A DNA stretch of 64,000 nucleotides from positions 1 to 64,000 of the forward strand of contig NZ_FNQK01000016.1 in the NCBI RefSeq assembly GCF_900107625.1, in the 5' to 3' direction. The stretch comes from Bizionia paragorgiae. GTDB lineage: Bacteria; Bacteroidota; Bacteroidia; Flavobacteriales; Flavobacteriaceae. Within the stretch, counting starts at the first letter, position 1. Every line of letters starts with the position of its first letter. Both the position numbers and the translations under genes were made by a program. The notes under the pieces were generated by a model. The model had not been told where the DNA came from, ran no database searches, and saw nothing but the letters and a program-made list of their open reading frames with translations. Below, piece after piece: positions 1 to 12,636 of the stretch.

Positions 1-190
1 CAACGGTCTTGTGTATGAAACGTAGCGTATAAATAAACACTAACTTTTCGGATTTTATACGAGGCGAATTTTTATTTTTTCTATTTATCTTTTAATTTCT
101 AAATATACAAAAATAAAAATTTGGCGGACTAAATAAATAAGCAAAAACCTCTCGGAAAGCCTATAATAGCTATGTTTTATACACGTTGTT
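1..190 (-). repeat. attC-like recombination site S1 (long form)
   Basis: Imperfect inverted repeat. The left arm begins CAACGGTCTTGTGTATG and the reverse complement of the right arm reads CAACAACGTGTATAAAAC; they pair with small bulges. An inner AT-rich stem and the motif TTGGCGGACT are shared with S4 but not with the shorter sites. It follows the retron cassette in reading direction; its right end carries that cassette's box GTTGTGCCAC. The window edge coincides with its left end. Confidence 0.75.
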
Positions 191-203
191 GTGCCACGTA
201 CTT

Positions 204-1301
204 TTATATCGGCCATTGTATTTTCTCAAATTCCTTGAAATATTGTATTCCTTTTTTTTCTTCTATTGAAAATACAAAACAGATATTACCATATAACCAA
301 TCTTTAAAATTTCGATTATTTATTTTCGCTGTTTTAATGTGATTTTCCACTCCATTTTCAATACAATGGAATAGGTGATGTTCTATTTCTTTTTTCTTTT
401 TTTTCGGTACTGTAGAAACATTATTCTGAATATTAAGTCCTGTCACAAGAAACTTTCCTCCAAGTTTTATGAATTTCGTTTTCGAGTAATTTGGGAATAA
501 GGATTCTTCTCTAATTATTCGATAAACGACTTTCTTGACTTTCTGCAATTGCTTAAAATTTCCCGAAAATGTTAAATCGTCAGCATAACGAGAGTAATTC
601 AATCCGTTTTTATTAGCTAATCCAGCAAGTCTTTTATCTAAATTGATTGTAATTAAATTTGATAATTTAGGACTTGTAGGCGAGCCTTGAGCAAGAATAC
701 CTTCATTTTTGGAAACAATATATTCTTTGAGTTCAGTTTCTTTTTTTCGGAAAGATGAAATAAACATTTCATCAGGAACAATTGTACAAATTTTAGCAAG
801 TGAAACTGCTAGATTTGGATGATAGCCCAAACTTTTAAATATCCCAAATATTCTCCTTTCATTAATAGAATCATAAAACCTTAATAAATCTAGTTTTAGT
901 AAGGCTTCTGATTTTAAATGTGTATCAGCATTATGTTTTATTGATGTGTTTTTGTCAAATCCTTTACAAGATGGGTGTGATGGAACTTTTTCTAGAATGT
1001 TCTTTAATATCCATCTTTGAAGATATTTTAATTCATCATTGGGTGTTTGGATAACCCTAAAACCACCTCTTTTCTTTTTTAATTTAAATCTCTTATAAGA
1101 TTCGATGCGATTAGATTTTGTTATTGTAAGTATTCGTTCAATATGAACTCCAGCAAGCAAACATAAATGAGGAACAGAATAAATAACGGGTAATCCTTTC
1201 TTTGCCAGTAAATCAGAATAAATTTTTATATCTTGATTGAATTCACTTGAATGGACAATTGGTTCCTGGTTTCTCTTTATATGATAAAATGGATAAGTCA
1301 T
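204..1301 (-). CDS. Retron reverse transcriptase
   Basis: 365 aa. The enzyme should copy part of the adjacent structured RNA (1302-1476) into branched msDNA. Directly visible retron hallmarks are NAxxH (NADTH, residues 124-128), the catalytic YADD (239-242) and VTG (286-288). Further RT motifs are GGFRVIQTPN (79-88), LDLLRFYDSI around 137-146 and QGSPTSPKLSN (205-215). No extra N- or C-terminal domain is present, which is the usual compact retron form. The ATG at 1301 directly abuts the a2 segment of the msr-msd RNA, so start and RNA end are physically linked. The stop lies about 7 bp before the cassette boundary box at 188-197. The effector gene is immediately upstream on the same strand. 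Known for the family: retrons with an effector act in phage defence by abortive infection; that role here is inference. Confidence 0.93.
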   Translation of the reverse strand: MTYPFYHIKRNQEPIVHSSEFNQDIKIYSDLLAKKGLPVIYSVPHLCLLAGVHIERILTITKSNRIESYKRFKLKKKRGGFRVIQTPNDELKYLQRWILKNILEKVPSHPSCKGFDKNTSIKHNADTHLKSEALLKLDLLRFYDSINERRIFGIFKSLGYHPNLAVSLAKICTIVPDEMFISSFRKKETELKEYIVSKNEGILAQGSPTSPKLSNLITINLDKRLAGLANKNGLNYSRYADDLTFSGNFKQLQKVKKVVYRIIREESLFPNYSKTKFIKLGGKFLVTGLNIQNNVSTVPKKKKKEIEHHLFHCIENGVENHIKTAKINNRNFKDWLYGNICFVFSIEEKKGIQYFKEFEKIQWPI

Positions 1302-1476
1302 AAAGGCAACTCGCTTTTAGAATAATGCGAAGCATTTACTACACGAACCTGACGTAGGAAGGTTTTGTGTAGTAAAAGTTGAAAAGATGCTTCAGTCCTA
1401 CATAAACTACTGTCTATGAGTTCTTGTCCTTCAAATGTTCTCACGAACACAAACTGACTCGAAATAGCTTGCCTTT
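1302..1476 (-). ncRNA. Retron msr-msd RNA
   Basis: Gap between effector stop and RT start, read on the minus strand. The a1 segment AAAGGCAA (1476-1469) is complementary to a2 TTGCCTTT (1309-1302), as retron ends require. A small perfect hairpin TGTTC-GTGA-GAACA occupies 1449-1436 (msr part). A long hairpin at 1393-1329 has an outer stem GAAGCAT/ATGCTTC and an inner stem TTTACTACAC/GTGTAGTAAA with a smaller stem AACCT/AGGTT at the tip (msd part). A guanosine directly follows a1 (position 1468) and is a candidate branching nucleotide. The a1 element overlaps the effector stop codon. The fold was read by eye, not computed. Confidence 0.85.
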
Positions 1477-2741
1477 TATGACTTTCCATTAAATATTCTT
1501 GGTATATAATTAGTTTCTTTTACTGCGAAATAATCAGCAGATTCATATTCAAAATTTCTATTTTTTCTTTTTATACATTTCTTTGCATCCTGATATATTT
1601 CTAGACCAAATAAGGTTAGATTATTTCCTTGATTGAAAAGCCCTCTTTGTTTTCCAATTTCAAGTATCTGTTCATAGTCTTTAGTTAAAATACCTAACTT
1701 TTGACAAATGTTAATTTCTGTAAACCCAGACCTCGATAGTTTTATTATTGCATAAATTGAGAAGTCTATTTTGCTTACAGAAGAAAAGCTTCTCTTTCCT
1801 TTTTTAATTTGATGAGTAAAAAATTCATTGTGTAAATTTTCACTTCCAAATTCCTTTAAAATTGATAGTTCATAAGAAATACTCTTTCTAAATTCTTTTG
1901 ATACACTTATTTTGTCAGAAAAGAAACGAGGTATTAATGGAAACCAATTATTTTTATTCGACCAGATTATTGGTAGAGTATTATTTGGACTTCCGTGGGA
2001 AAACGAAACTAATGCCTGACTATTTTCATAACCTAAAGCATTTATGAATTTTTCAGACTTATCTTTTCTAACTTTAGGACTAGTCAGTTTTATACCGTAT
2101 TTGAAACAAAATTCTCTATGTTGAATATAATTTCGATAACCAAAATAGCTTGCTTCACTAGAAAATGCTTTCTTAAAGATATTTGATTTAGGAATTTCTA
2201 TTCTGTCAAATATTGGATTTATTAATTCGACACCTTGTTTCATTCCTGCTACACCAACAAATAAAATTTCTTTGAAATTACTTTTTAATGAATCAATACT
2301 GTCTTCAAAATAGGTTTTAATGGAATTACCCGAACCTACAAAATCATCCAACAATACTAAAGAGTAATTTTTATCAGCTTCGGCAGTAAAATTCTGTACT
2401 GTTGGTAACATTATTATTTTCTTATTATGTTTTCTATGGAAATCTGTTTTTTGAAAAAAATAAGTTACCATACTACCACTTTTACCAAAATTCCCAATTG
2501 GGTTAATTATTATAATATCATTCGCTTCTAGTTTTGGAAATAAAATATTTAAACTAGAGTTGATTATTTCCTCAATTTCATAACTTGTATATACTGTTAA
2601 ATTAGAAGCTATATCTATTGCGTATTTTATTTCATTTTCCTCAAAATTGTTTAACCATTTTATAATATCCAAAGGACTAACAACATTTTTCAATCTTGCA
2701 GAAATTATATCTATGGTTATATTGTCAATTCTTTTTATCAA
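1476..2741 (-). CDS. Retron effector: phosphoribosyltransferase-like protein with C-terminal winged helix
   Basis: About 421 aa from a proposed TTG start at 2741. The open frame extends to 2879, but that part lies inside site S2, so a start inside the cassette is preferred; no ATG is available there. Visible features are a PRPP-loop-like motif VLLDDFVGSGNS (about residues 129-140), preceded by beta-rich segments typical of type I phosphoribosyltransferases, and a C-terminal stretch SIYAIIKLSRSGFTEINICQKL and following that looks like a winged helix-turn-helix. Ribosyltransferase-like effectors with a DNA-binding part are known partners of one retron group (Ec73-like). It is upstream of the msr-msd RNA and RT in the same cassette, so it is probably the toxic effector held in check by RT-msDNA. 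The enzymatic target is unknown. Confidence 0.8.
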   Translation of the reverse strand: MIKRIDNITIDIISARLKNVVSPLDIIKWLNNFEENEIKYAIDIASNLTVYTSYEIEEIINSSLNILFPKLEANDIIIINPIGNFGKSGSMVTYFFQKTDFHRKHNKKIIMLPTVQNFTAEADKNYSLVLLDDFVGSGNSIKTYFEDSIDSLKSNFKEILFVGVAGMKQGVELINPIFDRIEIPKSNIFKKAFSSEASYFGYRNYIQHREFCFKYGIKLTSPKVRKDKSEKFINALGYENSQALVSFSHGSPNNTLPIIWSNKNNWFPLIPRFFSDKISVSKEFRKSISYELSILKEFGSENLHNEFFTHQIKKGKRSFSSVSKIDFSIYAIIKLSRSGFTEINICQKLGILTKDYEQILEIGKQRGLFNQGNNLTLFGLEIYQDAKKCIKRKNRNFEYESADYFAVKETNYIPRIFNGKS

Positions 2742-2770
2742 TGTTTTCGGTCTGTTTGGGTATGTGGCAC

Positions 2771-2896
2771 AACGTGTTTGTATATGAAAAGTGCGTGTTT
2801 GTGTCAGCGGATTTTCGGAACGAAAATCGGATGAAAGCAAACACGTGCTTTCGTTTCGATTGAGCACTAAACTACGCATTTTTTATATACAGTGTT
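2771..2896 (-). repeat. attC-like recombination site S2
   Basis: Inverted repeat of about 126 bp. The left arm CAACGTGTTTGTATATG pairs with the reverse complement of the right arm, CAACACTGTATATAAAA. The apical palindrome is GATTTTCG-GAA-CGAAAATC. It separates the retron cassette (box GTGGCACAAC, 2764-2773) from the gene-poor cassette (box GTTGGCTTT, from 2894). Same subfamily as S3 and S6. Confidence 0.8.
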
Positions 2897-3258
2897 GGCT
2901 TTTAGTGCTTTTTTGTACGCTTAATAATTCTGTTTTGTGTTTTTTTTGGTCGGTTTTTAATTCCGTAAACTTGCTCAATTTCCTCAATATTTTTAATTCA
3001 GATTTGAGTGAGTAATTCCGCAAGAGTGATTTTCCACGTTCAGTTCGTTTTTTTTTTTTTTTATTGAGATCTCGATTCCGTAAACAAGCTAAAAAGTCAA
3101 ACGTAATTCTATTCAGAGTTTGAGTGATAATTCAGCGTATTTTTTAAAATTCGGCAACATAGTTTTTCGGTTTTTACTTACTTAAAATTCAAAAAAAATC
3201 CGAAAACCAAACCAGGCTTTTTTCATTCGCGCAAACTTGCTCCAGCATTAAAGCCAAC
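2894..3258 (-). other. Cassette without a convincing gene
   Basis: 365-bp unit with matching ends (GTTGGCTTT at 2894, AAAGCCAAC ending at 3258), so it is a proper cassette, but it has no open frame of useful length. On the minus strand there are only two tiny frames starting with ATG (14 and 15 codons, beginning MKKAW and MLPNF). The plus strand holds a diverged internal repeat: CCGTAAAC(TTG/AAG)CT followed by ATTCAGA-TTTGAGTGA recurs near 2962 and 3075, and the first part again near 3228. It could be a decayed gene, a promoter cassette or an RNA. Confidence 0.6.
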
Positions 3259-3379
3259 GTTTATGTATAAGAATAGTTGCGGGTTTGTATGCGAGGATTT
3301 TCCGAAGGAAAATCAGACGTTACAAACACGCAACGACCTTTGATTAAGCACTAAACCGCAATTATTTTTATACGGTGTT
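3255..3379 (-). repeat. attC-like recombination site S3
   Basis: The left arm CAACGTTTATGTATAAG pairs with the reverse complement of the right arm, CAACACCGTATAAAAAT. The stem continues with AGTTGCGGGTTTG against AATTGCGGTTT. The apical palindrome is GATTTTCC-GAA-GGAAAATC. It lies between the gene-poor cassette and the 206-aa gene cassette. Confidence 0.8.
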
Positions 3380-3393
3380 GTGCGTAGTTATTT

Positions 3394-4014
3394 TTAGAAG
3401 TCAGCTAAATCATCATTCTGATTATTCTTTTTTTCAATTTCAGCAATTCGTTCTTCAATTCGTTCTTGTATTTTCGGCAACATTGCTTCATTGAATTCCG
3501 CAATCTCTTTATTAATTAATGTAATTGTATTCTCTATTTTAGGAACCAATTCAGAAATCCAATTTTTTACTTCTTTTTTTAATGGTTCACTCAATTCTTT
3601 ACTTCCATATGTTGTATGATAGTAAATATGTAGTTTGGTAAGATTATCAACATCAACTAACACTTTTTCAAAACTGTGATTGCTTGGTGAGGAATATAAA
3701 AATTTTGAACTTTGTTTAATATTAAAACTCCAAACTACTCTTGCGCAAGAATAACTTTGATTTCTATTTACATCAGCTCCAGGTGGAAAAAATTTTCCAG
3801 AAATTTGAGTCATTTCAACGTTAGCCGATTTTTTTTCAAAATCCACTTCTAAAGGTTTTTCTTTATATTGATTGTAAACGTCATTTCTCAACTGTTCCAC
3901 ATTTCCATTGGTCAAGTTATATTCGTGTAAACCATCGACTTCATTTATTGCACTTTTGAAGGTTTTCTGTAGCCAATGATTTATATGATGTTCATTAAAT
4001 AATTTTATATTCAT
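3394..4014 (-). CDS. Cassette protein of unknown function, C-terminal coiled coil
   Basis: 206 aa, not recognised. No signal peptide or membrane segment, so probably cytoplasmic. The last third is rich in Glu, Lys and Ile (around residues 150-200, for example KIQERIEERIAEIEKK), which suggests an amphipathic helix or coiled coil. The N-terminal part contains FNEHHINHWLQK and a beta-rich middle with FFPPGADVN. It is the only gene in the cassette 3377-4049, whose ends GTTGTGCGTA/TACGCACAAC match over 10 bases. The ATG is about 30 bp inside the cassette start, as in neighbouring cassettes. Defence or stress roles are common among integron cassettes, but nothing in this sequence demonstrates one. 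Confidence 0.75.
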   Translation of the reverse strand: MNIKLFNEHHINHWLQKTFKSAINEVDGLHEYNLTNGNVEQLRNDVYNQYKEKPLEVDFEKKSANVEMTQISGKFFPPGADVNRNQSYSCARVVWSFNIKQSSKFLYSSPSNHSFEKVLVDVDNLTKLHIYYHTTYGSKELSEPLKKEVKNWISELVPKIENTITLINKEIAEFNEAMLPKIQERIEERIAEIEKKNNQNDDLADF

Positions 4015-4045
4015 CTTTTTTTGGTTTTGAGTGGTTAATTACGCA

Positions 4046-4232
4046 CAACGTGTTTGTATATGGCTCGTAGCGTGCAAATTAGCAATTAATTTTCGGTTAA
4101 TCACCAGCCAATTTTTTTAATTTTCTTATTATTTTTTTTATCAATAAGCCAAATTAAAAAATTTGGCGGACTTAGCAAATATGCCATAACTTCGATTAAA
4201 CAACCAACTAGCTATGAGCTATATACGGTGTT
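4046..4232 (-). repeat. attC-like recombination site S4 (long form)
   Basis: 187 bp. The left arm CAACGTGTTTGTATATGG pairs with the reverse complement of the right arm, CAACACCGTATATAGC. The inner region holds AT-rich complementary tracts flanking AAATTTGGCGGACT, as in S1. It separates the 206-aa and 231-aa gene cassettes. Confidence 0.78.
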
Positions 4233-4251
4233 GGCAAATCGTTTTTTTAAA

Positions 4252-4947
4252 TTATGGACCAAGCATTATTCTTTTAGCTAATTCCGCAGTTACACTAACA
4301 AAAATTTCTTTTATTACTTGTAATCCAGTTTTTTGAGCTCTTCCCCAAAATCTCGAAAGTCGAACCATTATCTTTTTTTTGGATTCAATCGTGAGAGCAT
4401 TTTTAATTTGCTCTGTTTCTTTCTCTAAAATCTCAATTTCAACAACTTTTTCAGGTGGTTGTTTTTCTTTAAGTTTCTTTAATTTTTCTTTTGATTCGTC
4501 AAGATATTGTTCAAGAAATATTTGTTGTTCCAAGTCGAAAGTTTCTTTATCTGCATTTTCGTCTATTATGTCGAATTTTTTAAAAAATCTTTCTGCATTT
4601 GACTTTAATACTGGGTCGTCAAAGAATGATTCCGTTGTCTCGTATTGGTCAAGAAGATTTAGCCAACTTTTAAATTGAGCTTCTAGATTTTTTATTTCAA
4701 TCCAGCCTCGATGGTTTCCGTTTTCATTTACATTTTTGGGTTTTCTGTCCATTAAGAACTGAAATGAACCGTTTTGCATTTTCTTATATTGTTCAATCTT
4801 AAAATAAAAATCTGAAGTATTATCAATATCTAAAACGTTTAGTAAATTGTCTTTTGGGTCAATTATTTTGAACTTTTCACCAGTCAGATTAACAAATGAT
4901 TCCAAAGATTTTAAAATCGTAATCGGTAATTTTTTCTTTTTGTTCAT
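4252..4947 (-). CDS. Cassette protein of unknown function, highly charged
   Basis: 231 aa, not recognised. It begins MNKKKKLPITILKSLESF and has no signal peptide. A long Lys/Glu-rich segment around residues 145-190 (KEKLKKLKEKQPPEKVVEIEILEKE) predicts helix or coiled coil. It is followed by a conserved-looking C-terminus (LSRFWGRAQKTGLQVIKEIF and a last hydrophobic-amphipathic helix AELAKRIMLG). The tail could contact a membrane or partner; no catalytic motif is visible. Sole gene of cassette 4230-4980 (ends GTTGGCAAA/TTTGCCAAC). Confidence 0.75.
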   Translation of the reverse strand: MNKKKKLPITILKSLESFVNLTGEKFKIIDPKDNLLNVLDIDNTSDFYFKIEQYKKMQNGSFQFLMDRKPKNVNENGNHRGWIEIKNLEAQFKSWLNLLDQYETTESFFDDPVLKSNAERFFKKFDIIDENADKETFDLEQQIFLEQYLDESKEKLKKLKEKQPPEKVVEIEILEKETEQIKNALTIESKKKIMVRLSRFWGRAQKTGLQVIKEIFVSVTAELAKRIMLGP

Positions 4948-4976
4948 ATTTTGTGCGTGATGTTCAAAATGTTTGC

Positions 4977-5101
4977 CAACGTTGTTGTATATGGTTTGTT
5001 GCGTGTTTTAAGCACCTAATTTAGCAAATACAAACCGAATAGAAAATCCGCGAGGATTTTCGTAAGTAGGCTAGAACTAGCAATAAATTATATACGGTGT
5101 T
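4977..5101 (-). repeat. attC-like recombination site S5
   Basis: The arms pair through GTATATGGTTTGTTGC (left) against GTATATAATTTATTGC (reverse complement of right). The apical palindrome is GAAAATCC-GCGA-GGATTTTC. Same subfamily as S7 and S8, sharing an ACCGAATAGAAAATC block with S8. Confidence 0.8.
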
Positions 5102-5112
5102 ACCTGCAGGCT

Positions 5113-5808
5113 TTATTCACGTTCTTTGTTCAGATATTGTTCAATTTTATCGTGTAAATTTTCTTTAATCCATTTATTCATTTCCGCTTTGTCTTTTCCA
5201 TCAGACGCATTCCACGGACTTTCCTCGTTTAAAATAACTTTCTCATTTTTTAGGTCGTAAAGAGAGTGATATAAATTCCCACGTTCCATTATTAAATAAT
5301 CATTTTTAATAAAAATTCGAATATTTTCCAAGTTTTTGCCAGCCTCATCATAATTCCACAATATTTTTTCAATATCATCATCGGTTTTTAATCTTTCTAG
5401 GTCTAATCGTTCTTCTCCTTTCCATTTTTCTTTTTTCCACTTAACAATATTCCATTCCATATCGTCAAATCCAGCCATTGTAAAATAGAGAACATAAAAA
5501 TTATTTTTATATTCCACTTTTTGTTGATATAAATAATCTTTGAAAAATTTCAGATAAATGTTCATTTTTATTTCTGAATATTTTTGAAATCCTTCGCTGT
5601 TAAGTCGATTACTTGTCGTGTCTTTAAATTTCTCCGCTATTGTTACACTATCAATTAAAATTTTCTGTTCTAATAATTCCGATAATTCTAATTCTCCAAT
5701 TTGCTCAAAATAATAATCTATTGTTCTGTCCTCAATCTTTTCAGTTTGGGATTTACAGCTTGTCGAACAAACTATTAATAAGATTATTGTCAAAATTTTC
5801 AAATTCAT
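5113..5808 (-). CDS. Cassette lipoprotein of unknown function
   Basis: 231 aa. The N-terminus MNLKILTIILLIVCSTSCKS is a clear lipoprotein signal with the lipobox cysteine at residue 18, so the mature protein is expected to be membrane-anchored in the periplasm or at the outer membrane. The mature part is rich in acidic, Lys and aromatic residues (for example GFDDMEWNIVKWKKEKWKG) with no recognised domain. Single gene of cassette 5099-5837, whose ends GTTACCTGCA/TGCAGGTAAC are perfectly complementary over 10 bases. The stop codon is about 10 bp from the cassette end. Confidence 0.78.
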   Translation of the reverse strand: MNLKILTIILLIVCSTSCKSQTEKIEDRTIDYYFEQIGELELSELLEQKILIDSVTIAEKFKDTTSNRLNSEGFQKYSEIKMNIYLKFFKDYLYQQKVEYKNNFYVLYFTMAGFDDMEWNIVKWKKEKWKGEERLDLERLKTDDDIEKILWNYDEAGKNLENIRIFIKNDYLIMERGNLYHSLYDLKNEKVILNEESPWNASDGKDKAEMNKWIKENLHDKIEQYLNKERE

Positions 5809-5833
5809 CCGTGATGTTTTTTCAGCTTGCAGG

Positions 5834-5959
5834 TAACGTTTATGTATAAGGAAAGTTGCGTGTTTGTGTGCGAGGATTTTCCGAAGGAAAATCAGATGCT
5901 AGCAAACGGGCAACTAACTTTGGTTTAGCTAAAACTAGCAATTTTTTTTATACGGTGTT
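5834..5959 (-). repeat. attC-like recombination site S6
   Basis: The left arm TAACGTTTATGTATAAGG pairs with the reverse complement of the right arm, TAACACCGTATAAAAA, continuing as AGTTGCGTG against ATTGCTAG. The apical palindrome is GATTTTCC-GAA-GGAAAATC. Its right end overlaps the stop codon of the next cassette gene. Confidence 0.8.
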
Positions 5960-6398
5960 AGCCACTGGTTTTATTTTTTATCAATCCGCTTATTATATTA
6001 ATCGGAAATATTATTTGTCCGACAACAGCAATCAACGTTATTGAATAAATTGCTAAAGTCAGATTGTCATTAAAATCAAATTCCACTATCGATTCTCGGT
6101 AAAGCTGCGACAAAACCCAGATTAATAAAATTCCGCCGAAAGTCAGCGCAATGTGAGCCAAATTCAGCCATTTGGATAGCTTTCTGTTTGTTTTTAGCAT
6201 AATCCAATATCCAAGTCCGATTATTGCAAAAAGAATTGAAATCAGAATGTTTAGGTCGGTCAGCGAAAAAACATAATAAGTGTCGTATTTATTAATAACC
6301 AAATTTTCTGTTGAACTTACAAATCCGCTTAACATTATTAACGGAATCGAAAGCCAAAAAATTAAATGTGGTTTATTGGTTATTCTGCTCATTTTCAA
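5958..6398 (-). CDS. Cassette four-helix membrane protein of unknown function
   Basis: 146 aa with four predicted membrane segments (roughly residues 11-29, 44-65, 76-97 and 110-138), short loops and no recognised motif. The reading frame ends ...KNKTSG and the TAA stop is formed inside the boundary box GTGGCTAAC, so the recombination box itself ends the protein. The start ATG lies about 13 bp inside the cassette start (box GTTAGCCAC, ending at 6411). Sole gene of cassette 5957-6411. Small membrane proteins in cassettes are sometimes toxins or immunity proteins; nothing here decides that. Confidence 0.75.
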   Translation of the reverse strand: MKMSRITNKPHLIFWLSIPLIMLSGFVSSTENLVINKYDTYYVFSLTDLNILISILFAIIGLGYWIMLKTNRKLSKWLNLAHIALTFGGILLIWVLSQLYRESIVEFDFNDNLTLAIYSITLIAVVGQIIFPINIISGLIKNKTSG

Positions 6399-6407
6399 CT
6401 TGTGGCT

Positions 6408-6530
6408 AACGGTCTCGGCTATGAGTAGTTGCGTGGGTTAGCACTCAACTTTACAAGTACACACCAAACTGAAAATCCGAGAGGATTTTCAGAAGTAGGC
6501 GAGAACAAGCAATTACTTATAGCCATTGTT
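6408..6530 (-). repeat. attC-like recombination site S7
   Basis: The left arm TAACGGTCTCGGCTATGAG pairs with the reverse complement of the right arm, CAACAATGGCTATAAG, continuing as TAGTTGCGTGGGTT against TAATTGCTTGTT. The apical palindrome is GAAAATCC-GAGA-GGATTTTC. It lies between the four-helix protein and GGDEF cassettes. Confidence 0.8.
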
Positions 6531-6543
6531 GTGCTTTCGTTTT

Positions 6544-7479
6544 TTATTCGTAATCTGTTTCATTAATTGTCATTACGTCGAACAGTTCTCGTGTTTCTTC
6601 ATAAATAGCAAGTTCCCATTTCTTATTTAGTTTTTGTTCAATTGTTATGGGATGCCAACAAATACTGAAATCGCCTTTTGCTTCTTTTGCTAAAATATAG
6701 CATTCATCAGATTTTCTTAATATGTCTTCAACTTCGTCTCTAGGGTCCATCTCAACAATTGCACAATGAAATGACAACTTTATTGATTCTCCGAGTATTT
6801 CTTTTGTTAAAGTTGAAAGTTTAGAAAAGTCATTTTTAACTAATCTATTGGCAAAACCCAAAGCGTCAGTTTGATTTCCTTGAATTATGAAAACAAATTC
6901 GTCTCCACCTGTATGAATTCTATAGAAATGTTCATTTTTTTCGTTTTTAATATTCATAGGATACTTATACATATCCTCATTTCTTCTCATCTTTTGATAT
7001 ATAGTTTGAGCAATAGTTCTAAGAAGTTTATTGGCTTTTAAAAAACCGTACTTATTATTTATTTTCTTAAATCCTTTTAGGTCAATTAAAATAAACTGAA
7101 GTTTCTTTTTGTGCTTACGTTTACTAAAGTGGATGTCAATATCTTTTTTTAGGCTTTGAAGATTGGGTACTCCTGTAATTATATCAGTTAATCTTTCATT
7201 TTCTGATATTTTGAGTAATTCTGCATAATTATCTCTTTCATATTGAGTTTTTTGATGATTTTCAAACTCTTTTTTCCATAAGTGATTCATTATAAACCAA
7301 ACAATAGTTGAAGTAATTACTACTATTATTAAAACAAACCTCCAATTCAAGAGTGTTCCATCTGGTGCGACTAATTTATAAAACTTGATTCCTTTTTCAA
7401 AAAATGCCAATAAAGCAAACACTAAAATTATCAGGGCGATAATCAGTCCATATTTATATTTTATCTCTATTGGTTTCAT
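6544..7479 (-). CDS. Membrane GGDEF protein (putative diguanylate cyclase)
   Basis: 311 aa. Two membrane segments (about 11-27 and 47-65) are followed by a short helical linker and a GGDEF domain. The active-site signature GGDEF is intact at 191-195, and LTDIITGVPN (97-106) matches the usual DxLTGLxN start of the domain; LIDLKGFKKIN (131-141) supplies the metal-binding Asp region. No RxxD inhibitory site precedes the signature, so product feedback is not expected. The likely reaction is two GTP to cyclic di-GMP, but several residues differ from classical cyclases and activity is unproven. Alone in cassette 6528-7511 with no EAL, PilZ or other effector beside it in the array. Confidence 0.83.
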   Translation of the reverse strand: MKPIEIKYKYGLIIALIILVFALLAFFEKGIKFYKLVAPDGTLLNWRFVLIIVVITSTIVWFIMNHLWKKEFENHQKTQYERDNYAELLKISENERLTDIITGVPNLQSLKKDIDIHFSKRKHKKKLQFILIDLKGFKKINNKYGFLKANKLLRTIAQTIYQKMRRNEDMYKYPMNIKNEKNEHFYRIHTGGDEFVFIIQGNQTDALGFANRLVKNDFSKLSTLTKEILGESIKLSFHCAIVEMDPRDEVEDILRKSDECYILAKEAKGDFSICWHPITIEQKLNKKWELAIYEETRELFDVMTINETDYE

Positions 7480-7507
7480 ATTTTATTAGTCTGTCTTAAA
7501 TGAAGCA

Positions 7508-7631
7508 CAACGTGTTTGTGTATGATTAGTGGCTTGGTTAAGCACGTAATTTAGCAAATAAAAACCGAATAGAAAATCCGCGAGGATTTTCGTAAGTAGG
7601 CGAGAACCAGCCATTAATTATACACGGTGTT
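7508..7631 (-). repeat. attC-like recombination site S8
   Basis: Clearest site. The left arm GTGTATGATTAGTGGCTTGG pairs with GTGTATAATTAATGGCTGG (reverse complement of right) with single-base bulges, as extrahelical bases do in attC. The apical palindrome is GAAAATCC-GCGA-GGATTTTC. The left box GCACAAC belongs to the GGDEF cassette, the right box GTTGCCC to the first cassette. Confidence 0.82.
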
Positions 7632-7649
7632 GCCCACAGTATTTTATTT

Positions 7650-8528
7650 TCAGAGTTCAATTCCGTGTTTTTTCAAAGTCGTATTGAACCAACCTTTTCG
7701 CTTTTTCCAAATTTCTTCTGTTCTTAATTTACTTATCGCAATTTTTTTAAATTCCTCGTTATTACTTTCCAATAATGTTTCAATATATGAATGCAAATAG
7801 AAAATTTCATTTTCGGTTTGAAATTTAGCTTTCGGAAAGTCAGTAGTCAAATATTTTTTCAATTTCTCGGAGTATTCGGACGGATAATATTTTTTTAAAT
7901 AATCAAATGCGTAAGAGTTGTTTTTCTTAAAAGCCAATTCCTCAATTCGTGGTAAATAACTGTCTTTGTGTTTTCTATTCTCAAAAACTCTGTCATAAAT
8001 TAGCCAATCAACATCTTTTTCTGAATAGATTATTACGCTATCCAATTTTTCCATAGTAAAGTCAGTCGCAACCGCTTTTTGCATTGCTAAATCTTGTTCG
8101 TAATTATTTCCATTAATTTTTCGTGAGGCTTCTAATCTGATTTTATTCCAATATTCGTGATAAATAATTGATGAAATCGGTTCAACATCCATTATGCAAC
8201 CCTCAAAAGTTTCAACCTTTTCATTTTTTTGCAATTCAGTTGATAATAATTCAAGAATGTTTCCTTTCCCTGATTGGATAAGTTCTTTGGAAGCATAAGT
8301 CCGAATTGTTGGATTTTCGTGTTTTGATAATTCGATTAGTTCTTTTTCGGATAGTTTTTTCTTTAATTTTTGAAATCTTGTGTATTGTGGACTTACCATA
8401 CAACCAATTCCAATACAATCAGATTCCACTCTATTTACTTTAATAATTGAATCAATCAGTTGTTCTTTTGTTTGCGAAAAACAAAGACTAATTGTCAAAC
8501 TAAATATTATCGTGAGCAGTTTTTTCAT
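7650..8528 (-). CDS. Secreted cassette protein with HEAT-like segment
   Basis: 292 aa. The N-terminal signal peptide MKKLLTIIFSLTISLCFSQT (likely cleavage after FS) predicts export. The segment ELIELSKHENPTIRTYASKELI (about 61-82) has the pattern of one HEAT-type helical repeat, and the remainder is helical with Tyr/Lys-rich stretches. Cysteines are few (a CIGIGC pair near residue 38, and one at about 112). No enzyme motif. It is the first cassette next to the recombinase (7629-8540, ends GTTGCCCACA/TGTGGGCAAC), so by the integron model it is the most recent arrival. Function unknown. Confidence 0.75.
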   Translation of the reverse strand: MKKLLTIIFSLTISLCFSQTKEQLIDSIIKVNRVESDCIGIGCMVSPQYTRFQKLKKKLSEKELIELSKHENPTIRTYASKELIQSGKGNILELLSTELQKNEKVETFEGCIMDVEPISSIIYHEYWNKIRLEASRKINGNNYEQDLAMQKAVATDFTMEKLDSVIIYSEKDVDWLIYDRVFENRKHKDSYLPRIEELAFKKNNSYAFDYLKKYYPSEYSEKLKKYLTTDFPKAKFQTENEIFYLHSYIETLLESNNEEFKKIAISKLRTEEIWKKRKGWFNTTLKKHGIEL

Positions 8529-8533
8529 ATTGT

Positions 8534-8582
8534 GGGCAACTGGTTATATGGCATCTAATATACACTTTTTTGGGTATTAGTA
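8534..8582 (-). other. attI-equivalent insertion site
   Basis: The first cassette ends here with box GGGCAAC (8534-8540). Beyond it there is no 125-bp repeat, only about 42 bp of unrelated sequence up to the stop codon of the recombinase. This is where an integron model places the primary insertion site. It lies at the 3' end of the recombinase gene, unlike class 1-type integrons where attI is at the 5' side. Location inferred from the array boundary. Confidence 0.6.
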
Positions 8583-9758
8583 TCAGGATAATAGGAAATT
8601 TTGTTCCGCTTTATCCGTCGTGCGTAAATGAGTTATGGCAAGATCCAATGGGCTCTTTATCTCCAGCAGGTCCTTTCTAGCTACATGTGTGTATATCATC
8701 GTTGTTTCCGGTTTAGCATGGCCTAAAAGCTCCTGAATATGCCGTAGTCCAACCCCGTTTTCTATTAAATGAGTTGCGTAACTGTGGCGTAAAGTGTGGG
8801 GCGTTACATGGCGTTTAATATGTGCCGCTTTACACGATTTAGTTAAAAATTTACGCACGCTACTCGCCGAGTACATACCGCCCTTGCTGCCCTCTACAAA
8901 ATACACCTCAGGCCTGTACGTTATTAAATAATTGTGAAGTAAAGGCAGAAAACTGTCCGCTAAAGTAACATAACGATCCTTTCGGCCCTTAGCAGTCCTA
9001 ATAAATACCTGTTTTCTCTGTATATTAATATGCTCTAATTTAAGCTGTATCAATTCACTAATGCGTAAACCACACGAGTAAATTAAAGCCAATACAGCAC
9101 GATGTTTTAGGTTTTTAGTGTAGCTAATAATCAGTAGCATCTCCTCTTGAGATAATACCGTGGGTAGTATGCGCGACTTCCGTGGTCGCGTTAATTCTAA
9201 ATCGCTAATCTCAGTGTTAGGGTAAAAACGACTAAACTGTTTTATCGCACTAATAAACTGCCGTTGTGTGCTTACCGAGTACTTACGCTTAATAAAAACC
9301 GATTCTATAAACAACTCCACATCGCGAACCGTTAAAGTGGTTAAGTCACGGCCGCTTTGGAACTCAATAAAGTCGGCAACAAAATAAAGGTAAGTGTCAA
9401 TAGTACTTTTACTATAGCGCTTGCCAACTAAGTACTTGTAAAAACCATTAAGTAATTGGCGTTGTTCTGGGCCCAATGTACGATTGCGTTTTACCGGAAA
9501 TGCCGCAGGTTTCTCTGCTGCCGCATCAAAGAGTTGGCTAGTATCTAATTGGGCAATGCCATTAAAAGCCTCGTGAATCACAGTTTCGTTCGTCGGACTG
9601 TATTTTAGATACCAAGCCCGTAACGTTTTACTCCATTTTGCACCTTCAATGCCGCGTAAAATGGTTATTAAATCCGTGTTATAAGGAAACCGTAAAACAA
9701 GTTGGCGCACCTTCTTGTGTTCAATTATAAAAAGTGAAATTACAGGAAGTTGCGCCAT
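8583..9758 (-). CDS. Tyrosine recombinase (candidate cassette integrase)
   Basis: 391 aa. Domains: an N-terminal extra region (1-80, including KWSKTLRAWYLKYSP), a SAM-like core-binding domain (about 95-185) and a catalytic domain (about 198-375). Catalytic residues are visible: R232 (CGLRISEL), K257 (AKGRKDR), H321 and R324 (HTLRH), H347 (LLGH) and Y356 (MIYTHV). The C-terminus Y-THV...KSPLD resembles the end of integron integrases, but the roughly 35-residue insertion that IntI proteins carry before the HTLRH box is absent; that interval is XerC/D-like in length. Its stop abuts the cassette array. It is co-directional with polA (46-bp gap) and no strong TTG-N19-TAnnTTTG promoter is evident in the gap, so co-transcription is possible. 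Role in cassette movement is inferred from position. Confidence 0.9.
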   Translation of the reverse strand: MAQLPVISLFIIEHKKVRQLVLRFPYNTDLITILRGIEGAKWSKTLRAWYLKYSPTNETVIHEAFNGIAQLDTSQLFDAAAEKPAAFPVKRNRTLGPEQRQLLNGFYKYLVGKRYSKSTIDTYLYFVADFIEFQSGRDLTTLTVRDVELFIESVFIKRKYSVSTQRQFISAIKQFSRFYPNTEISDLELTRPRKSRILPTVLSQEEMLLIISYTKNLKHRAVLALIYSCGLRISELIQLKLEHINIQRKQVFIRTAKGRKDRYVTLADSFLPLLHNYLITYRPEVYFVEGSKGGMYSASSVRKFLTKSCKAAHIKRHVTPHTLRHSYATHLIENGVGLRHIQELLGHAKPETTMIYTHVARKDLLEIKSPLDLAITHLRTTDKAEQNFLLS

Positions 9759-9804
9759 AGTGAAAAGATTAATTACTAAAGCTAAGTAAAAAACAGATTA
9801 AAAC

Positions 9805-12636
9805 CTAATGCGCTTCTAACCAGTTTATTCCAGTGTCCATTTCAACATCTAACGGAACATCTAAAGTAAATGCCCCTTCCATTTCTTTTTTAATAAGCAC
9901 TTTTAAAGCGTCCAATTCCGGTTTGTAAATATCAAAAACCAATTCATCATGCACCTGTAAAAGCATTTTCGATTTGTAATTACCAGCCTCCAAAGCCTTG
10001 TAAATAGCAATCATTGCAATCTTAATAATATCGGCAGCACTTCCTTGAATAGGCGCATTTACAGCATTCCTTTCCGCAGCACCACGAACCACACCATTCC
10101 TAGAATTAATATCTTTTAAATAACGACGACGCCCTAAAACCGTTTGCACATACCCATGGTCGCGAGCAAAATCTATTTGCCTGCTCATATACGCTTTTAA
10201 TTTCGGGTAGGTTTCGTAATACGTGTCTATTAAGCCCTTAGCCTCCCCACGCGATAAATTGGTCTGATTACTCAATCCGAAAGCCGAAACCCCGTAAATA
10301 ATACCAAAATTAACCGTTTTAGCCTGGCTTCGCTGCTCGCGAGTAACAGCCTCTAATGGCACATTAAAAACTTTCGATGCCGTACTAGCATGTATATCTT
10401 CACCGTTTTTAAATGCCGATATCATCGTTTCCTCCTGGCTTAATGCCGCAATAATCCGAAGCTCAATTTGCGAGTAATCGGCAGCTAGTAAAATATAATC
10501 GTCATTTCTTGGTATAAACGCTTTACGTACCTGGCGTCCGCGCTCCGTTCTAATAGGAATGTTCTGTAAATTCGGGTTGTTACTACTTAAACGCCCCGTG
10601 GCAGCAACCGTTTGCATATAATCGGTGTGCACACGGCCCGTAGAAGGTTCTATCTGGGTAGGTAACGCATCAATATACGTGCTCTTAAGTTTCGATAAAC
10701 CACGGTAATCCAATACATGTTGTATAATGTCGTGGTCTTTGGCTAAATACGATAAAATATCTTCCGAAGTCGCATATTGTCCCGTTTTGGTCTTCTTAGG
10801 CTTGTCAACCAACTTTAGTTTTTCAAATAAAATAATCCCCAATTGCTTTGGCGAGGCAATATTAAAAGTCTCCCCAGCAACCTCGTAAATTTTAGTCTCT
10901 AAAGCTAAAATGTCAGCATCCAAATCTGCCGATAACGATTTTAAAAACCCCTCGTCAAGATTTATACCCTCCAATTCCATAGCAGCCAATACCCGAACTA
11001 ACGGTATTTCAATGTCTCTAAACAATTCCGCCGTTTTAGCACTGCTTAATTCCGTTTCAAAATGCTGCTTTAGCTGTAGCGTAATATCCGCATCCTCAAC
11101 CGCATATTCCGTTTGCTGCTCTAACGGTACATCGCGCATAGTAAGCTGGTTTTTGCCCTTTTTACCTAAAAGCTCGGTAATGGCAATAGGCGTATAGTTT
11201 AAATATGTTTCTGCCAAAACATCCATATTATGGCGCATATCAGGGTTTATTAAATAGTGCGCTAGCATCGTATCAAATAAATGACCAGCAACCTTTATCC
11301 CGTATTTGTCAAGAACCTTAATATCGTATTTTAAATTCTGCCCCACTTTTTCAATGTGCTCAGCCTCAAAAAACGGACGGAGTAATTCTACAACCGCCTG
11401 TGCCTCGTCCTGGTCCTCAGGGATAGGTAAGTAAAACCCTTTGTTTACCTCCCAAGAGAAAGCAATACCCACCAAAGTGGCAGTTAAGGGGTTTAATCCC
11501 GTAGTTTCCGTGTCAAAACACACGCAGGTTTGCGCCATTAACTGTTTTAAAAATAACGTCGTCGCCATCCCCGGGGCTACACTCTGGTAAAAATGCGCGG
11601 TCGTCGCCAACGTGTTGCGCGTATACGTGGTGGATGGCGCTTGCGCGGAATTGTCCGCGGTAGCAAACAAATTAAATTGTCCTGCACCAGCTTCCTCGCT
11701 AGTAGTGGTTGCTTTTTTTGTTTCCGGTGCCGCTGCTCCGCTTTCCGAAGTGTCAACACTAAACGTCTTAACAAAATTGTCTATAAGGCGTCTAAATTCT
11801 AAATCCTGAAAAATCTCGGTGACCTTAGGAATATCAGGTTCCGATAATTCGAAATCTTTAGCATTAAAAGTAACCGGAACATCCAACATAATCGTCGCGA
11901 GCTGTTTCGATAATAACCCCAACTCTTTATTGGCTTCAATTTTCTCCTTCATCTTGCCCTTCAACTCATGCGTGTTAGCCAATAGGTTTTCCATACTACC
12001 ATACTTGGCAAGAAATTTCTTGGCCGTTTTTTCACCTACACCCGGTAACCCCGGAATGTTGTCCGATGCATCGCCCATCATCCCCAAATAATCAATCACC
12101 TGTAACGGATCCTCAACTTCAAATTTCTTTTGAACCTCAGGGATACCCCAAGTTTCATAACCGCCACCAAAAACAGGACGGTACATAAATATATTTTCAC
12201 TTACCAGCTGGGCAAAATCCTTATCCGGAGTCACCATAAACGTGGTGTAACCTTCCTTTTCCGCTTGCTTAGAGAGCGTGCCTATAACATCGTCGGCCTC
12301 ATAACCTTCCTTTACCATAATAGGAATATGCATCGCTTTTAATATCTCCTGAATATAAGGTACTGCAACTTTTATCGCCTCTGGAGTAGCATCACGATTG
12401 GCCTTGTAAGCTTCAAATAACTCCACCCGGTCCGCACTACCGCCCTTGTCAAAACAGACCGCCAAATGATCCGGTCGCTCGCGCTTGATTACATCTAATA
12501 GCGAATTCATAAAGCCCATAATGGCCGAGGTGTCTACACCTTTAGAATTTATTCGTGGGTTTTTTATAAAAGCATAATAACCCCTGAAAATTAAAGCATA
12601 AGCATCAACTAAGAAAACGCGTTTTTGATCTGACAT
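9805..12636 (-). CDS. polA: DNA polymerase I
   Basis: About 943 aa, full length. Start set at MSDQKRVFLVD (12636), because the preceding eight codons precede the conserved first strand of the 5' nuclease domain. Domains: 5'-3' exonuclease (1-290, with AYALIFRGYYAF and GDASDNIPGLPGVGEKTA), 3'-5' proofreading exonuclease with intact acidic residues (CFDTETTGLNP), and polymerase with motif A (DYSQIELRIIAAL), motif B (RSQAKTVNFGIIYG) and motif C (LLQVHDELVFD). It fills gaps in repair and removes RNA primers. The linker around residues 295-345 is Ala/Thr-rich and poorly conserved. Core gene marking the right border of the cassette region. Confidence 0.98.
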   Translation of the reverse strand: MSDQKRVFLVDAYALIFRGYYAFIKNPRINSKGVDTSAIMGFMNSLLDVIKRERPDHLAVCFDKGGSADRVELFEAYKANRDATPEAIKVAVPYIQEILKAMHIPIMVKEGYEADDVIGTLSKQAEKEGYTTFMVTPDKDFAQLVSENIFMYRPVFGGGYETWGIPEVQKKFEVEDPLQVIDYLGMMGDASDNIPGLPGVGEKTAKKFLAKYGSMENLLANTHELKGKMKEKIEANKELGLLSKQLATIMLDVPVTFNAKDFELSEPDIPKVTEIFQDLEFRRLIDNFVKTFSVDTSESGAAAPETKKATTTSEEAGAGQFNLFATADNSAQAPSTTYTRNTLATTAHFYQSVAPGMATTLFLKQLMAQTCVCFDTETTGLNPLTATLVGIAFSWEVNKGFYLPIPEDQDEAQAVVELLRPFFEAEHIEKVGQNLKYDIKVLDKYGIKVAGHLFDTMLAHYLINPDMRHNMDVLAETYLNYTPIAITELLGKKGKNQLTMRDVPLEQQTEYAVEDADITLQLKQHFETELSSAKTAELFRDIEIPLVRVLAAMELEGINLDEGFLKSLSADLDADILALETKIYEVAGETFNIASPKQLGIILFEKLKLVDKPKKTKTGQYATSEDILSYLAKDHDIIQHVLDYRGLSKLKSTYIDALPTQIEPSTGRVHTDYMQTVAATGRLSSNNPNLQNIPIRTERGRQVRKAFIPRNDDYILLAADYSQIELRIIAALSQEETMISAFKNGEDIHASTASKVFNVPLEAVTREQRSQAKTVNFGIIYGVSAFGLSNQTNLSRGEAKGLIDTYYETYPKLKAYMSRQIDFARDHGYVQTVLGRRRYLKDINSRNGVVRGAAERNAVNAPIQGSAADIIKIAMIAIYKALEAGNYKSKMLLQVHDELVFDIYKPELDALKVLIKKEMEGAFTLDVPLDVEMDTGINWLEAH

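Follow-up and report, generated by a model that had tools for sequence, protein, structure and literature searches.

A stretch of 64,000 nucleotides of Bizionia paragorgiae DNA (NCBI RefSeq assembly GCF_900107625.1, contig NZ_FNQK01000016.1, positions 1 to 64,000; hereafter the window) very probably carries the integrase-bearing end of a chromosomal system of integron type that is run by a Xer/XerA-like tyrosine recombinase and not by IntI. The system appears to work like an integron, as judged for cassette capture from its anatomy and from comparative genomics, while its integrase departs from IntI in the I2 block and in model score. Gene-capturing integrons seem to exist without the I2 helix.

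The array in the window comprises eight cassettes on the reverse strand, delimited by the complementarity between their two ends, and each is closed by an attC-like site on the same strand that was located by folding and by a structural scan. In all cassettes, GTT and the following 6-7 bases at the start exactly complement the left core of the cassette's own end site (8/8, over 9-10 nt), which is the expected trace of circular cassettes integrated via a folded attC. Cassette 1 (7511-8539, 10-nt complementarity) contains an ORF at 7650-8528 and ends in site S1 (7509-7631), with its AAC...GTT core. It is followed by cassette 2 (6410-7510, 9 nt; ORF 6544-7479; site S2, 6408-6530), cassette 3 (5837-6409, 9 nt; ORF 5958-6398; site S3, 5835-5959), cassette 4 (4980-5836, 10 nt; ORF 5113-5808; site S4, 4978-5101), cassette 5 (4049-4979, 9 nt; ORF 4252-4947), whose site S5 (4047-4232) has a long loop, and cassette 6 (3258-4048, 10 nt; ORF 3394-4014; site S6, 3256-3379). 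Cassette 7 (2773-3257, 9 nt; site S7, 2771-2896) fully encloses no ORF of at least 80 aa. Cassette 8 (4-2772, 10 nt), which ends in the long-looped site S8 (2-190) at the contig start, is a type III-A retron with an RT at 204-1301 (RT_III-A, 2.2e-139) and a PRTase ORF at 1476-2879 (PRTase_III-A, 1.4e-130). Because the profile matches the latter only from ORF residue 50, its true start probably lies inside the cassette. The 174-nt gap between the two retron ORFs (1302-1475) may be the place of the retron ncRNA. Rfam at gathering thresholds gave zero matches in window positions 1-12000. As for the other cassettes, the ORF of cassette 2 has a GGDEF domain (1.1e-21) and that of cassette 6 gave a match to PDC-S54 (6.4e-20), a candidate model for phage defence.

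The recombinase gene (8583-9758, reverse strand) begins with ATG and encodes 391 aa with a Xer-like core. In a domain search, PF00589 covered residues 201-361 and the SAM-like core-binding domain PF13495 began at residue 102, which leaves ~100 residues ahead of the core and agrees with the extra N-terminal part described in an earlier note on this DNA. The full catalytic set read there (R232, K257, H321, R324, H347 and Y356) and the IntI-like C-terminus (T357-H358-V359, P370 and D372) were likewise borne out, all of these residues being unchanged in 18/18 aligned sequences, the window protein included. The interval that had been called Xer-length, with the IntI-specific helix missing, was also confirmed: K257 to H321 spans 65 residues, compared with 107 in 8/8 canonical Bacteroidota IntI, and the I2 and beta4-5 HH motif block is absent. 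The same span is 65-71 residues in the 17 relatives of that alignment and 71 and 73 in the host genome's own two Xer-type proteins.

The closest NCBIfam model is XerA (NF040815; 203.4 bits, below the cut-off of 220), and the models for IntI (TIGR02249; 198.1 bits, cut-off 265), XerC (TIGR02224; 180.4 bits, cut-off 335.15) and XerD (TIGR02225; 180.9 bits, cut-off 329.6) also scored below their cut-offs. The IntI match is split in two, its better part covering residues 104-278, and V. cholerae IntI4 matches the protein over 105-278 and 300-372. The predicted structure (pLDDT 82.5, pTM 0.48) aligned best with XerA (5hxy, 4a8e; Z 24.5 over 264 residues), at an rmsd of 14.0 that points to a differing domain arrangement, and second best with IntI4 (Z 20.9, rmsd 5.4). 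XerA is therefore nearest in both fold and model, but the window protein falls under the cut-off, lies beside cassettes and has an additional N-terminal domain. Some relatives carry the automatic NCBI label 'site-specific tyrosine recombinase/integron integrase'.

The attI site (8538-8562, reverse strand) lies 3' of the recombinase gene and has the form TATATT-N7-ATATAAC-CA then G^TT. The GTT of the first junction (8540-8538), 42 nt past the recombinase stop codon, follows this box directly in the context CA-GTTG and opens cassette 1, and the crossover would fall between 8540 and 8539; the 8534-8582 region, which had been put forward as the partner site, does contain attI. The recombinase gene thus stands 5' of attI and in the same direction as the cassettes. 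Using a pattern picked after inspecting the regions, an attI-type box was found before GTT in 32/37 distinct regions of group A (42% identity or more) versus a shuffled mean of 0.9, and a perfect palindrome with arms of at least 8 bp followed by GTT was found in 11/67 other regions (shuffled mean 0.1). An attI-like mark from a looser pattern was discarded because that pattern was too loose. The attI of several relatives (e.g. L061, L062, L066) contains a TATATTTG-like sequence. The promoter motif of Bacteroidota is TAnnTTTG, which we take TATATTTG to resemble, and the sequence is a possible candidate for a cassette promoter.

In the proposed mechanism, a circular cassette would present its folded bottom-strand attC site, and the recombinase would cut at G^TT and join the folded site to double-stranded attI. 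Incoming cassettes would be inserted beside attI, where transcripts arriving from the gene or arising at attI could express the first ones.

The association of the gene with the sites extends to its relatives. The recombinase was found at E <= 1e-60 in 67/198 genomes, including that of Bizionia paragorgiae, and stringent sites were detected in 37 of 45 loci chosen for fetching from among all recombinase matches; 150 of the 151 sites had the orientation expected and lay on the 3' side of the gene. Most of these loci include only ~1.4 kb of DNA ahead of the gene, so that the lack of upstream sites is read mainly from the window and from loci L034-L037 (Bizionia, Hanstruepera, Winogradskyella and Subsaximicrobium). 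No stringent site was present on the expected strand in 8/45 loci, some of which have covariance-model matches among the matches listed, and L053 and L071 had no clear array. A relaxed scan placed 10 of 173 matches on the opposite strand. At the genome level, and with kinship ignored, sites were present in at least 61/67 recombinase-bearing genomes versus at least 53/131 others, and within the host's family in at least 58/60 genomes with the recombinase versus at least 43/60 without it (kinship likewise ignored). Close relatives without attC-like arrays, which the earlier note named as the finding that would speak against it, were looked for in this way, and arrays were consistently found beside the relatives (the 37/45 loci above). 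Together with the IntI score and the missing I2 block, this agrees with the reading of the protein as a cassette recombinase other than IntI.

End complementarity recurs in the relatives. At 7 nt or more it was found in 83/114 adjacent versus 41/688 non-adjacent pairs, and undetected sites are the likely explanation for the 31/114 adjacent pairs without closure at 7 nt. Similarly, further arrays (in G114, G102, G070 and the Bizionia paragorgiae genome) closed in 43/68 adjacent versus 51/799 non-adjacent pairs. A covariance model which, like the structural scan, was built from the window sites gave 361 matches in 47 sources, and with at most 13 candidates scored per genome it found matches in at least 114/198 genomes. 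The Bizionia paragorgiae genome (G000) has 43 matches over nine contigs, with clusters off the recombinase contig on C8, C15, C27, C6, C22, C29, C2 and C13 (C8 and C6 being short), and these suggest a larger array that is fragmented or dispersed. Among the sites listed, the distance from the gene reaches ~70 kb in three genomes, measured from gene to site.

Further relatives were found in phages, for which 80 viral loci (L110-L189) were gathered with a profile of the recombinase family. The phage recombinases are shorter (~270 aa), with a core 30-45% identical, and the N-terminal domain was absent in 4/4 that were checked. Fifteen phage proteins, aligned as part of 20 of the 30 first-chosen sequences, had at most 2 columns beyond the window length and hence no insertion of I2 size. 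Stringent sites were present in 45/80 loci (89 sites in total), and they share the attC type of the window. They lie on the other side of the gene, however: 87/89 share one strand and lie on the 5' side of the recombinase gene. This is the divergent layout of classical integrons, opposite to that of the chromosomal loci. Sites 5' of the gene were found in 40/71 distinct phage loci. Closure at 7 nt was found in 15/36 adjacent versus 9/102 non-adjacent pairs. The first detected site has a partner of at least 9 nt in 29/40 loci by hand count, and a TATATA-type box ~3 nt before GTT and within 100 nt of the ATG was seen by eye in 10/40 phage loci. G.T pairs occupy stem pair 21 in 76/76 phage sites and pair 16 in 46%. 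Taken together, the phage loci are apparent phage-borne integrons of classical layout. Neighbouring genes in three of them include a phage-type DNA polymerase, an exonuclease, a homing endonuclease and an RNA ligase.

The isolated Polaribacter phage P12002L (L284) contains six sites of the window type according to the structural scan, and was absent among the nine phage records that matched the window recombinase at 1e-30. A published study reports attC clusters in this phage, of CALIN type without an integrase and in virulent phages (PMC9892861), so that P12002L resembles the window in its sites and differs in being described as integrase-free. One P12002L attC, not necessarily among the six scanned sites, is reported there to be active under IntI1 and on the bottom strand only, and section 3.4 of that paper describes no I2-less integrase (PMC9892861).

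The earlier note had further proposed that the additional N-terminal residues replace the function of I2. In this unlikely reading, the N-terminal domain (residues 1-77; 9528-9758, reverse strand) would be a functional substitute that senses mismatches or branches in folded attC DNA, for which the two G.T pairs conserved in its stem would offer a target. Structure prediction, Foldseek and VIA-align describe a bb-a-bb-a-b domain, predicted on its own at pLDDT 89.6, with a weak resemblance to the XPB N-terminal and HARP folds. The fold common to HARP and the XPB domain binds DNA in a structure-specific manner. SMARCAL1 HARP was the best PDB match of a profile made from five N-domain sequences (E = 0.0095), yet a 35-sequence profile gave no HARP match. 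XPB and HARP chains filled the first four Foldseek rows, but with E-values of 0.15-0.33, and MutS chains came only at ~0.8-2.2. In VIA-align, XPB ranked best (Z 6.6, 1.8 Å over 57 residues), at a level where Z < 8 may be background and where eIF1-type chains tie with it (Z 6.1-6.4). Pfam gave no domain over residues 1-100 common to most members, and HARP was not among the matches listed for 18 members (25 of 28 Pfam families).

The distribution of the domain also speaks against the substitution, which the analysis did not support. Phage recombinases that lack the domain occur with the same site type, including the G.T at pair 21. In addition, the domain was not found in L240, L246, L248 and L252 even when the upstream DNA searched was widened (best E 0.26), and L252, a 308-aa open frame, nevertheless has attI together with a single closed cassette whose hairpin stem is good. 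In L246 the core closes but the stem is poor, and L240 has only an attI-like sequence before the contig ends. Judging from the phages and the domain-less loci, the N-terminal domain is probably an accessory and not a general replacement for I2.

The sites themselves consist of an AAC/GTT core, a 6/3-nt unpaired spacer, a ~16-bp stem with two G.T pairs and a variable loop. Folded on the + strand, which is the bottom strand of the cassettes, they contain 98.2% standard pairs as compared with 32-49% in slid controls, a comparison that favours the fold because it was derived from these same eight sequences. The top-strand fold gave 85.0%; as G.T was scored as a pair, the advantage of the bottom strand partly restates G.T. 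Double-change cells in the bottom-strand fold numbered 21 versus a shuffle mean of 5.8. The structural scan (AAC, 6 nt, 16-bp stem, 3 nt, GTT) returned exactly the eight sites on the + strand and none on the - strand, and gave no matches either in window positions 12000-64000 or in shuffled phage sequence totalling 1.53 Mb.

Among 270 distinct sites, selected for at least 14/16 standard pairs with G.T allowed, G.T was found at pair 16 in 79% and at pair 21 in 93%, compared with 21% at pair 17 and 0-2% at the remaining positions (T.G up to 10%). The frequencies at pairs 16 and 21 were 80/95% in group A, 80/88% in group B and 30/70% in the 10 scanned sites of group C. G.T pairs become A.C on the top strand and hence mark the strand; the better fold was on the bottom strand in 76/80 sampled sites. 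A single bulged G past pair 25 occurred in 82/270 sites and a bulge-free continuation in 105/270. The G.T pairs and the spacer asymmetry are the likeliest candidates for what marks the correct strand.

These features also bear on the possibility that the cassettes recombine as double-stranded Xer-like sites, with the hairpins being terminators or relics. The Xer-like core of the enzyme, with XerA as its nearest solved relative, and the palindromic attI in some distant relatives (the 11/67 regions above) are in line with such a reaction. We nevertheless give it little credence, since double changes keep the pairing in a stem of variable sequence, and better on the bottom strand than on the top, and since the start/end complementarity gives a paired core only in a circular cassette.

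A very improbable explanation treats the array as a CALIN-type cluster that owes its movement to a canonical IntI, present or past, with the Xer-like gene beside it as a bystander. It would account for the sites in at least 53/131 genomes that lack the recombinase at E <= 1e-60, and for the activity of IntI1 on one attC of P12002L, a phage with window-type sites (PMC9892861). Canonical IntI does occur elsewhere in the phylum, where TIGR02249 exceeded its cut-off in 105/395 genomes, none of the host's family being among the matches listed. However, the same model at its cut-off found IntI in 0/198 genomes, including Bizionia paragorgiae and the copy-bearing G016, G114 and G102; the control genomes of this search were negative as well, and the 395-genome phylum search serves as its positive control. 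Moreover, the attI box follows the gene in 32/37 group A regions, and the orientation of the array is fixed relative to the gene, in the phages too, on the other side. In each of the genomes G212, G351, G293 and G473, an I2-less relative (K-to-H span 66) was observed alongside a canonical IntI.

Comparisons within genomes show that segments have moved. G016 contains 1428-bp and 978-bp segments that are 100% identical between places ~half a megabase apart and a further 707-bp segment that is 100% identical between two other places, while G114 has a 1229-bp copy and G102 four copies of a 643-bp segment (all at 100% identity). The test examined left flanks and omitted pairs with missing or alike flanks, right ends were checked for two pairs, and the listing of 51 rows counts most pairs twice. 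In the two pairs inspected at both ends, the identical stretch runs up to the AAC core or to no more than 5 bases from it, and the arms beyond differ. The exact copies show cassettes moved between arrays, with the recombinase as the presumed enzyme. Homologous recombination between the repeated sites, which as ~125-bp repeats are good substrates, is extremely improbable as their source because crossovers within repeats would scatter the breakpoints over the arms, whereas the two inspected pairs end at or next to the core with differing arms.

The phylogenetic comparison that had been suggested was run as a quick tree of 96 hand-chosen rows, with a divided outcome. Group A (97) and canonical IntI (100) each formed a clade, with A outside the IntI clade, yet tree tests did not reject a grouping of A with IntI (p = 0.119). 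IntI joined L248, L252 and L256 (99) on a long branch. The K-to-H span of these three is 66-68, and hence they are without the I2 block; L256 has two closed cassettes and L252 one. This placement of IntI with I2-less proteins suggests that cassette recombination predates I2. The description of the enzyme as a new type of integrase suits the protein, but not a single lineage, as several lineages share the trait and A, B and C as one clade were rejected (p = 0.005). A broader scenario is offered as a speculation that may well prove wrong: integrons would have preceded I2, with I2-less Xer-like enzymes running capture in several Bacteroidota lineages and in their phages, the phages retaining the classical divergent layout and possibly being the older home; canonical IntI would be one derived branch that added I2, and strand choice in the I2-less systems would be made by fixed G.T pairs in the attC stem.

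Sedentary chromosomal integrons, such as those of Vibrio, resemble the window array in their cassettes with attC hairpins, the AAC/GTT core, the start/end complementarity, the better fold of the bottom strand, apparently long arrays and the occurrence of an ORF-less cassette. The window differs in having an integrase without I2 and the HH motif and with an extra N-terminal domain, a gene 5' of attI in the direction of the cassettes, two G.T pairs and a 6/3 spacer. In Treponema integrons, the integrase gene also points in the cassette direction, as in the window, but the enzyme is a canonical IntI.

Published accounts assign the I2/beta4-5 block a role in IntI (PMC7790495 and PMC3053210), I2 being presented as the acquisition that enabled integrases to recombine single-stranded attC (PMC7790495), and an IntI-specific domain has been treated as a defining trait (PMC9668308). 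Bacteroidota are counted among the integron-bearing phyla in earlier papers (PMC9668308 and PMC8618304). According to a section of the IntegronFinder 2.0 paper, Bacteroidetes were earlier represented by In0 alone and have one complete integron, that of Salinibacter ruber, with those of Chlorobi and Ignavibacteriae also named (PMC9024848). For one Polaribacter phage, related attC sites are already published (PMC9892861), while I2-less integrases are seemingly undescribed: a search of titles and abstract openings, with preprints outside its range, found no description of an I2-less integron integrase.

With I2-less cassette systems, direct tests of how integrons arose and whether they need I2 would become possible. 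Sites in at least 101/120 genomes of the host-family sample indicate a large cassette reservoir. Cassettes may also spread by way of phages, given the loci there with the same site type, and the cassette bearing the type III-A retron ties this spread to phage defence. Relatives of 39% identity were also observed on two Chryseobacterium plasmids (NZ_CP041688.1, 16041-17072; NZ_CP094530.1, 38327-39343), and 50 of the 68 matching records in the plasmid collection came from Acinetobacter.
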